In this document: positions 30,016-37,704 of the stretch, in pieces
Layout: every line of letters starts with the position of its first letter
Numbering within the stretch: the first letter of the stretch is position 1
From: an uncultured Chloroflexota bacterium
GTDB taxonomy: Bacteria; Chloroflexota; Dehalococcoidia; Lucifugimonadales; GCA-002694895
Assembly: GCA_950054395.1 (NCBI GenBank)
Contig: CATLOZ010000007.1
Location: 1 to 37,704, forward strand
Direction: 5' to 3'
Length of the DNA stretch: 37,704 nt
Position numbers and translations under genes: made by a program
The notes under the pieces: model-generated
Told to the model about the DNA's origin: nothing
What the model saw: the letters and a program-made list of their open reading frames with translations, nothing else
Databases searched by the model: none

Positions 30016-30052
30016 AAAAGCCGCCGATGAGTTAAAAATCGGCGGCTTTTTT
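30016..30052 (+). terminator. intrinsic terminator after importer-2 binding protein
   Basis: AAAAGCCGCCGAT (30016-30028) pairs perfectly with ATCGGCGGCTTTT (30038-30050) around a 9-base loop, followed by Ts to 30052. The GC-rich core is striking in this AT-rich DNA. It sits 38 bases past the lipoprotein stop and about 70 before the permease ATG. Confidence 0.9.
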
Positions 30053-35622: not shown

Positions 35623-36513
35623 TTAATTATATTCATCTAACAATTTAAACATTTTTTTTGATTGAGATACTGTTTCACCAACCTTCTCATCTCCATATTT
35701 TAAACTAATTCTTGCAAGCTCCACATACATTGGCAATATAGCTGGATACGATTTTCGAAGGGTATCTAAATGCATTTTAACTGTATCATAATCACCTCTT
35801 ACATAAGGTCCAGCCATTGACTGTGGAATACCTAATTCAATAATATTTTTACAGCTTTGAATCATCATTGGAATCAAAGCTTTAGCTCCCTCCTCTCTAC
35901 TTAAGCCAATTTTTTGCCATATATCCGCAATTGAAGATGCCATACCAAGTAATAAATTACCTGCCATAACTCCTGACAAATGATAAAGTGCTCTATATTT
36001 AGGATCTATCTTGATAGATATAGCATCTAAATTATTAACCAATTTACTAATGATATTCAAAGCAAATTCATCACCATCAATACCAAAAGTAATATTATCT
36101 AAATTATTACTGCCTGAATCCATATCAGAAAAAGGTTGCAAAGGATGCATGCTACCCACAGATGCCCCGTCATTTTTCGCTCTACTTAAAACGCCTAACC
36201 CTAAAACCCCAGAGCAATGAATAACTATTTGTCCTTTTTTCCATGATGCAGATTCAACAGATGATTTGATAGCGTTATCAGTTGTAGTAATAAAAATAAT
36301 ATCTGCATTATCAGAAACTTCTTGAACAGATGTCGATAAGCTTGCATCATCTAACCTAGAGCACAATTTTATTATTGAAGCTTTGCTTCTACTAAATATT
36401 TTTGTAATACAAAAATATTTTTTATTTAATGCTATAGCCAAAGCTCCACCTAAAGCTCCTGCCCCAACAATGCCTATTCTATAAGATTTAAACTCTTGCA
36501 ATAAAAATACCAA
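35623..36513 (-). CDS. Rossmann-like / DUF2520 domain protein
   Basis: A 296-residue protein with an N-terminal NAD(P)-binding Rossmann fold (GIVGAGALGGALA, residues 14-26; ADIIFITTTDNAI near 70) and a helical C-terminal half typical of DUF2520 proteins (GSMHPLQPFSD, YRALYHLSGVMAGN, AGPYVRGDYDTVKMHLDTL). The family resembles F420/NADP-dependent and ProC-like reductases, but its reaction is not established. No ATG gives a full N-terminus. TTG at 36513 is one choice; a second TTG four codons on would also keep the Rossmann domain. No Shine-Dalgarno is seen. The start codon touches a perfect 37-base palindrome. It is separated from the molybdenum hydroxylase gene by 96 bases. Confidence 0.82.
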   Translation of the reverse strand: MVFLLQEFKSYRIGIVGAGALGGALAIALNKKYFCITKIFSRSKASIIKLCSRLDDASLSTSVQEVSDNADIIFITTTDNAIKSSVESASWKKGQIVIHCSGVLGLGVLSRAKNDGASVGSMHPLQPFSDMDSGSNNLDNITFGIDGDEFALNIISKLVNNLDAISIKIDPKYRALYHLSGVMAGNLLLGMASSIADIWQKIGLSREEGAKALIPMMIQSCKNIIELGIPQSMAGPYVRGDYDTVKMHLDTLRKSYPAILPMYVELARISLKYGDEKVGETVSQSKKMFKLLDEYN

Positions 36514-36549
36514 TATTTATAATTTAAATTATATTTAAATTATAAATAT
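36513..36549. repeat. perfect 17-base inverted repeat, AT-only, in divergent gap
   Basis: Bases 36513-36529 are the exact reverse complement of 36533-36549, with a 3-base spacer TAT. All 37 bases are A or T. It begins at the first base of the TTG start of the DUF2520 gene and ends 38 bases before the ATG of the C45 gene, so it lies in the shared promoter region. It could be an operator for a symmetric regulator, a cruciform-prone site, or a hairpin at the 5' end of the DUF2520 message that covers its start. Confidence 0.9.
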
Positions 36550-36587
36550 ATATGTAATAAAAAATAAACCTATATCTTGCAACATAA

Positions 36588-37631
36588 ATGTCTTTAGTCG
36601 ATACATACAAATTCCCATATATAGAAATTACTGGTGATCATTATGAAATGGGATTTAGTCATGGAAAACAAATTTCAGAACAAATTCGAGAATATATCAA
36701 ATGGATAAGATTCAAAAGTAAGGAAACAATCAAACAATCTCAAAAAAGATCTATGTCTTTTTATAATCTAATAAATAATTATTCAAATAGCTATATAAAT
36801 GAAATCCATGGTATAGCTGAAGGTGCAAACATCATATTTGAAGATGCAATGTTATGCCAAGTCAGATTTGGAAAATTAGATAATACAAATGATGAAGGAT
36901 GTACAGCATTTTCATTTAAAGAAAAAAGTACTTTAAATTCCAATTTATATATTGGACAAAATCAGGATATGGATCCTGAATTCTTAAATTTTGGTTTTGT
37001 TTTAAAATTAATCCCTAGTATAGATATACCTCAAATCATTATGTTCACATTTCCAGGGCAAATAGGTTATGCAGGAATGAATGAACATGGAATATCTAAT
37101 TTTGCAAATGCTTTATATAATTTCCAAACACAAAAAGGAGTTCCTCATTATATTTTGAAAAGAAAATTACTAGAACAAAGATCATTAGAAACCTGTAAAA
37201 AAATTTTAAATACAATTAATGTTTCAGAAGCAGCCAATGTATTAATATCTGATAAAAAAAATATTATTGATTTTGAATTTCATAATAAATCAAGATATGA
37301 ATTTACTTCTCATGATCAAAACTCCGTCATTCATACCAATCACTATTTAACTGATGAATTAATTAAATTTGAAAATAATACATTGATAGATTCGCCAATA
37401 AGACTTCAAAGAATGCATAATTTAATAAAAAATATTTACGGAAATATAAATCTTGATAACATAAAAAATATTCTAGCTGATCATTATAACTTCCCTTCTT
37501 CGATATGCAGACATGGTGCTAATAATATGGATACTGTTTCAGGATATATTGCTGACCCAAGTAATAAAACTTTCCACATAAGAAAAGGCTTTGGGTGTGA
37601 AATGAATTGGCAAAGTTATAACTTTGATTAA
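36588..37631 (+). CDS. C45 family autoproteolytic acyltransferase/hydrolase
   Basis: Ntn-hydrolase of the isopenicillin N acyltransferase (C45) family, 347 residues. Such proteins cut themselves in front of a Cys, which then becomes the N-terminal nucleophile for amide hydrolysis or acyl transfer. Seen are the family start ITGDHYEMGFSHGKQISEQI, HGIAEGANIIFEDAM near 75-90, EGCTAF with Cys105 (close to Cys103 of the fungal enzyme), IGQNQDMDP (the conserved Asn/Asp after the nucleophile), and a GMNEHGISNF segment near 165. Auto-cleavage between Gly104 and Cys105 is inferred. There is no signal peptide. It is divergent from the DUF2520 gene. The family in bacteria works on varied amides, not only penicillins; no antibiotic cluster is present. 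Confidence 0.87.
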   Translation: MSLVDTYKFPYIEITGDHYEMGFSHGKQISEQIREYIKWIRFKSKETIKQSQKRSMSFYNLINNYSNSYINEIHGIAEGANIIFEDAMLCQVRFGKLDNTNDEGCTAFSFKEKSTLNSNLYIGQNQDMDPEFLNFGFVLKLIPSIDIPQIIMFTFPGQIGYAGMNEHGISNFANALYNFQTQKGVPHYILKRKLLEQRSLETCKKILNTINVSEAANVLISDKKNIIDFEFHNKSRYEFTSHDQNSVIHTNHYLTDELIKFENNTLIDSPIRLQRMHNLIKNIYGNINLDNIKNILADHYNFPSSICRHGANNMDTVSGYIADPSNKTFHIRKGFGCEMNWQSYNFD

Positions 37632-37704
37632 AATTATTATTAATGTTCATAGGTTTAACTTATGCTTACTATATGTTAAAGTTTATTAAATTTTTTAAAC
37701 TATT
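37632..37704. other. 73-base AT-rich end of window
   Basis: After the C45 stop only AT-rich DNA remains. TTTAAC (37654-37659) and GTTAAA (37675-37680) could form a weak hairpin, not followed by a clean T-run. I see no gene start. Confidence 0.4.

Follow-up and report, generated by a model that had tools for sequence, protein, structure and literature searches.

A perfect palindrome lies between two divergent genes

We analysed a stretch of 37,704 nucleotides from an uncultured Chloroflexota bacterium (contig CATLOZ010000007.1), hereafter the window. Close to its right-hand end, a DUF2520 gene and an acyltransferase-like gene are transcribed away from each other, and the spacer between them contains a long palindrome. 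The features of this region are as follows.

35623-36501, minus strand: DUF2520 / Rossmann-fold protein gene with its favoured start, based on Pfam and on alignment with the relative G001 (the longest frame starts at 36513)
36394-36420, no strand: second perfect palindrome, with 13-base arms and a 1-base spacer, within the DUF2520 coding sequence (inverted-repeat search)
36513-36529, no strand: left arm of the main palindrome, 17 bases, DUF2520 side (inverted-repeat search)
36530-36532, no strand: spacer TAT, 3 bases (inverted-repeat search)
36533-36549, no strand: right arm, 17 bases, acyltransferase side (inverted-repeat search)
36518-36571, minus strand: DUF2520 upstream stretch homologous to G001, 54 columns (score 28; 5 of 2000 shuffles as good, 2 of 1000 on repeat)
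36588-37631, plus strand: C45 / AAT family acyltransferase-like gene (Pfam), placed inside what is the DUF2520-plsY spacer of two relatives

We observed that the palindrome at 36513-36549 spans 37 bases, ATATTTATAATTTAAAT-TAT-ATTTAAATTATAAATAT, pairs at 17 of 17 positions and contains no G or C. All other perfect inverted repeats in the window (spacer ≤20) are shorter. The 86-base spacer between the genes had a symmetry score of 17, which none of 1000 dinucleotide shuffles reached (mean 7.6), and the right end of the palindrome lies 38 bases from the ATG of the acyltransferase-like gene. A preliminary description of this DNA had reported a perfect AT-only palindrome with 17-base arms and a 3-base spacer between divergent genes, 38 bases from that ATG, and had judged 17 matched positions unlikely by chance; all of this held. 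The scan for further copies that it had proposed returned this one place in the genome's own assembly at up to 3 mismatches (1,259,081 bases, completeness 75.91), so we rejected a repeated element, and 100 shuffles of the window gave no chance match. Elsewhere in the window, a GC-rich stem-loop bounded by A and T runs lies between tandem genes at 30016-30050 and resembles an ordinary terminator.

The same description had placed the edge of the palindrome at the DUF2520 start codon, which our comparison did not bear out. TTG 36513 is simply the in-frame start that lies furthest upstream. Among relatives with a full DUF2520 gene the nearest is G001, which belongs to the same genus (59% protein identity). 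Its gene begins GTGCAAGAT, with no start codon further upstream in frame, and the counterpart in the window is TTGCAAGAG at 36501. DUF2520 alignments begin at residue 8-12 in most relatives and at residue 4 in G001 and another relative, G003. The start is most likely TTG 36501, and because the G001 start corresponds to this position, the palindrome would end 11 bases ahead of the gene. Within the gene, one arm of the palindrome at 36394-36420 encodes orthologue-like residues (K-I-F for K-I-Y), and the other arm (KYFC) departs.

The acyltransferase-like gene has a different neighbourhood in a relative

The product of the plus-strand gene belongs to AAT (PF03417), the family named C45 in the preliminary description. 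We observed C45 matches (E ≤ 0.001) in 4 of 60 genomes, with the genome under study counted. The G001 gene (71% identity) is on a different contig, where it follows another gene of the same strand at a distance of 9 bases. C45 was not found in G003, and the C45 protein gave no relative in a scan of the genome contigs. In both G001 and G003, the divergent partner of DUF2520 is a plsY-type glycerol-3-phosphate acyltransferase gene (identified by Pfam in G003 and in the genome under study, and by match in G001), which is followed by a family 2 glycosyltransferase gene in G003 and a like gene in G001. Because the partner is plsY in two relatives, C45 appears to have entered the DUF2520-plsY spacer. 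Across the searchable genomes, DUF2520 and C45 are not conserved as a divergent pair; the genus is represented by five genomes, of which G002 (65% complete) and G004 (79% complete) gave no DUF2520 match.

The genome's own plsY gene opens another contig (C26). The window ends in the 77 bases with which this contig begins. Assemblers leave such overlaps between neighbouring contigs. On the strength of this overlap, the gene order is likely DUF2520, palindrome, C45, plsY. The overlap is exact (window 37628-37704, L058:1-77), and the contig break falls inside a short tandem repeat, TTTTTTAAACTA. The C45-plsY spacer showed no significant likeness to the DUF2520-plsY spacers of the relatives (equalled by 184 and 88 of 1000 shuffles) and therefore does not place the right-hand C45 junction. 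A molybdopterin-binding dehydrogenase gene near the locus had its best match, among 13 loci, in a Dehalococcoidia bacterium (81%), which puts the genome close to Dehalococcoidia MAGs within the Chloroflexota.

The homologous upstream region of a relative is not symmetrical

The alignment with relatives suggested in the preliminary description recovered homologous sequence upstream of DUF2520 in G001, but the symmetry was absent there. The aligned stretch takes in 32 of the 37 palindrome bases; the 5 that it leaves out are the outermost of the left arm. TATAAT and ATAATTTAAA are common to both upstream regions. The best arm in the G001 region was 5 bases, and 999 of 1000 shuffles were as good. 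The alignment of the G003 upstream region to the window was not significant (769 of 2000 shuffles as good), so the comparison rests on one relative.

When read in the register of the palindrome, G001 formed 10 of 17 pairs (shuffle P ~0.10), which is not clearly above chance. At all 7 mispaired positions the window retains one of the two G001 bases, although retention was forced at 3 of these positions, which are A-A or T-T, and another 3 (pairs 1, 4 and 5) involve bases past the significant alignment. The retained bases alternate between the arms, and therefore more than one template-switch event would be needed. At pairs 2 and 3, which are partly beyond the alignment, the window differs from G001 on both sides; this is the pattern that selection for symmetry would be expected to leave. 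The G001 pairing fits, but does not prove, a quasi-palindrome that was made perfect, and the change may have fallen in either lineage.

Promoter-like hexamers occur on both strands of the palindrome

We identified candidate -10 boxes for both genes.

36539-36544, minus strand: TATAAT, candidate DUF2520 -10 box, 37 nt from TTG 36501; also TATAAT at the aligned position of G001
36528-36533, minus strand: TATAAT, second candidate DUF2520 -10 box, 26 nt from TTG 36501; CATAAT in G001
36518-36523, plus strand: TATAAT with TTGCAA (36496-36501) 16 nt upstream, candidate C45 promoter
36541-36546, plus strand: TATAAA, alternative candidate C45 -10 box, 41 nt from the ATG, overlapping a minus-strand TATAAT

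The plus-strand TATAAT at 36518-36523 lies further from the C45 ATG than is usual, at 64 nt. Other plus-strand hexamers before this ATG are TGTAAT at 29 nt, just outside the palindrome, and TATATT at 52 nt. Given the two full minus-strand TATAAT boxes, the predicted start of the DUF2520 message falls inside the palindrome. Bidirectional promoters are marked by mapped start sites 7-25 bp apart on the two strands, and the predicted pairs here include 9 and 21 bp. They are also marked by -10 hexamers that overlap or adjoin on the two strands, as the plus-strand TATAAA (36541-36546) and the minus-strand TATAAT (36544-36539) do.

Hexamers of this kind are expected here anyway given the AT-richness (3 promoter-like sites vs 3.8 in shuffles, consensus scan). 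In 248 divergent upstream regions of three genomes, exact TATAAT at 25-39 nt before starts occurred 44 times in sense and 21 times in antisense orientation, over a range that was picked after the table was seen. The strand bias was weaker for a wider set of TATAAT-like hexamers (105 sense vs 89 antisense).

Perfect palindromes are in excess across the genome

We counted perfect inverted repeats with arms of at least 13 and spacers up to 12 in 443,704 of the 1,259,081 bases of the genome, about a third. The samples were contig starts and not random draws, with whole small contigs also included for G001, and genes were called by a simple longest-frame method and not from an annotation. We observed 27 such repeats, with 18 centred in genes and 4 in tandem, 3 in divergent and 2 in convergent spacers. 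Arms of at least 17 were found in 7, the palindrome at 36513-36549 among them. Markov models of order 1, 3 and 5 (three runs each) gave no arms of at least 15, and 100 shuffles of each of 59 sampled divergent spacers gave none of at least 17. Longer perfect palindromes in the same genome are at L063:7372-7423 (arms 26, spacer 0), L064:9836-9891 (arms 23, spacer 10) and L067:18097-18143 (arms 19, spacer 9).

The excess extended to coding sequence. We observed 16 palindromes wholly in genes, compared to a mean of 1.40 in 20 synonymous shuffles and 1.25 in a further 20 (largest 3), and a coding density of ~38 per million bases. Because this excess lies in genes, a large share of the palindromes cannot be promoter operators or terminators. 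The spacer counts also exceeded their shuffle means (divergent 3 vs 0.06, tandem 4 vs 0.07, convergent 2 vs 0.01); per base, spacers are therefore richer than genes.

The comparison genomes were of the same order, plus E. coli. G001 and G003 also showed a coding excess, which was smaller (4 vs 0.30 and 7 vs 0.75). Four more genomes of the order had 1, 1, 2 and 0 coding palindromes vs 0.25, 0.15, 0.25 and 0.05 (140, 80, 140 and 40 kb), too few to be read singly. No such palindrome was found in 180,759 coding bases of E. coli, a contrast made unclean by the G+C content of that species (51% vs 30% here); the synonymous-shuffle comparison is the clean one. Perfect palindromes of this class, to which that at 36513-36549 belongs, are thus common in the genome under study and are not limited to promoters. 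The preliminary description had named palindromes elsewhere in the genome as evidence against its regulatory reading, and this is largely what the 27 repeats in the sampled third provide.

Arms of coding palindromes are less conserved than their genes

We compared coding palindromes with their orthologues, using 26 of the 27 wholly coding palindromes (arms of at least 13) in the samples of three genomes; the remaining one, L037:4727 of G001, was examined separately. Usable comparisons numbered 15, from 11 palindromes, and for the other 15 palindromes the fetched stretches contained no usable orthologue. Mean identity was 0.34 for the worse arm, compared to 0.52 in random windows, and 0.61 for the better arm, compared to 0.74. 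The palindrome arms are less conserved than their genes. In only 1 of 15 comparisons was the difference between arms unusual, which does not establish one-arm replacement; L068 and L095 speak against it. For the G001 coding palindrome with 21-base arms at L099:7641-7687, arm identity to the G003 orthologue was 0.29 vs 0.62, which was not unusual (P = 0.23).

The palindrome that was examined separately lies at the 3' end of a gene that we take to be recA-like. It pairs at 12 of 12 positions in the genome under study (L058:2887-2914) and at 13 of 13 in G001 (L037:4727-4754), and is absent from the G003 gene. Between the first two genomes, each arm carries a synonymous change, and the two changes together preserve the pairing. 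Such paired changes could reflect template switching or selection.

A proposed AT-rich promoter made symmetrical by mutation

We hold with moderate confidence that the palindrome is the AT-rich core promoter of DUF2520, made symmetrical by a lineage-specific mutational process. A shared operator and a regulatory hairpin are both less well supported by the evidence.

The strongest competing reading is an operator on which a dimeric regulator would occupy both arms and control DUF2520 and C45 jointly, and we consider it unlikely. Long and perfect symmetry with a short spacer, lying over likely -10 boxes and not reproduced by spacer shuffling, is what an operator would look like. Two other sampled divergent spacers of the genome carry perfect palindromes with arms of 13 and 14, and the two outer pairs that differ from G001 on both sides also point this way. 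However, we found neither conservation at orthologous promoters nor repetition across a regulon. The palindrome is single-copy in the assembly. Its 16-base core occurs at 4 places with at most 1 mismatch, compared to 3 for a backwards-read control, so it is not enriched and was rejected as a regulon motif. An operator conserved with the gene pair was rejected because the pair was not seen in relatives and the homologous G001 region is without symmetry. In addition, neither the DUF2520 nor the C45 protein contains a DNA-binding domain in Pfam. With a unique site, a core that is not enriched and an unsymmetrical G001 promoter, the earlier proposal that one bound regulator could affect both genes is unsupported.

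We regard it as improbable that the palindrome acts as an RNA hairpin in the DUF2520 or C45 leader, affecting translation or message stability. A 17-pair stem is predicted on both strands (plus, -13.3 kcal/mol, z -2.8; minus, -14.6 kcal/mol, z -2.1), but it is entirely A-U, the palindrome has no Rfam match and G001 lacks the symmetry. With its predicted start inside the palindrome, the DUF2520 message would hold one arm at most, and the plus-strand boxes at the usual distance would place the C45 start beyond the palindrome. The earlier idea that the DUF2520 message folds over its own start is doubtful for the same reason, and because the start codon is probably 36501. We also rejected a known RNA family (the sole Rfam gathering-score match in the window is one tRNA) and an intrinsic terminator (none was found in 36300-36800, the stem has no G or C, and the genes diverge).

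It is highly unlikely that the palindrome is a scar left when C45 came to lie between DUF2520 and plsY, such as the end of a small mobile element, even though C45 is elsewhere in G001 and was not found in G003 while both have DUF2520 beside plsY. An 8-base string, TCTTGCAA, flanks the palindrome at 36494-36501 and 36575-36582, and may be chance. The 32 palindrome bases within the G001-aligned stretch match a place that is without C45, and therefore the palindrome is not new junction DNA. There is also no second copy in the assembly and no direct repeat of at least 12 in 36300-36700. Chance in very AT-rich DNA is extremely unlikely, because shuffling of this spacer and of the 59 sampled divergent spacers never gave such arms, despite 37 bases without G or C in which AT-only positions pair half the time.

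For a mutational origin of the symmetry, we propose the following. The palindrome would be the AT-rich core of the DUF2520 promoter. C45 has come to lie on its other side, and the core is now probably shared; with TATAAT-type boxes in both arms, RNA polymerase could open the DNA either way. Judging from one relative, a mutational process such as template switching at quasi-palindromes most likely turned an imperfect symmetry into a perfect one. An AT-rich -10 region would still function when symmetrical, which would explain why exact symmetry was tolerated. We infer that the symmetry was gained in the window's lineage rather than lost in G001.

A broader reading, which we offer tentatively, is that an unusually active process in this low-G+C Dehalococcoidia lineage generates perfect palindromes in genes and promoters and retains some of them. 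This promoter would be one product, now bidirectional after a new gene moved in. The single site is a modest case of perfect promoter symmetry arising without a dedicated regulator. The genome-wide palindrome excess is the better lead, and the coding excess would open template switching in uncultured AT-rich bacteria to study from genomes only.

Comparison with known systems

We found no literature on SAR202 or Dehalococcoidia promoters that treats palindromes. Regions upstream of genes are enriched in perfect inverted repeats according to surveys (PMC13155455, PMC10434271), and the palindrome shares with these repeats its perfect arms, short spacer and upstream position. As drawn on here, the surveys do not assign a function or an origin to an individual site of this kind.

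Bidirectional promoters arising from -10 symmetry are documented in other bacteria (PMC10268837, PMC12825309). As in those promoters, TATAAT-type hexamers lie on both strands between divergent genes, and two of them overlap. Here the symmetry reaches far past the -10 element, to 17 pairs, and the bidirectional promoter itself is a predicted one.

Template switching renders quasi-palindromes perfect, according to work with E. coli quasi-palindrome reporters (PMC7202029). Our comparison is between species and not of an observed mutation, and more than one event would be needed. As in the reporters, the repeat is perfect and has a short spacer; the relative pairs imperfectly in the same register, at a level not clearly above chance. 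The excess of perfect palindromes across the genome, coding sequence included, is a further likeness to template-switched quasi-palindromes.
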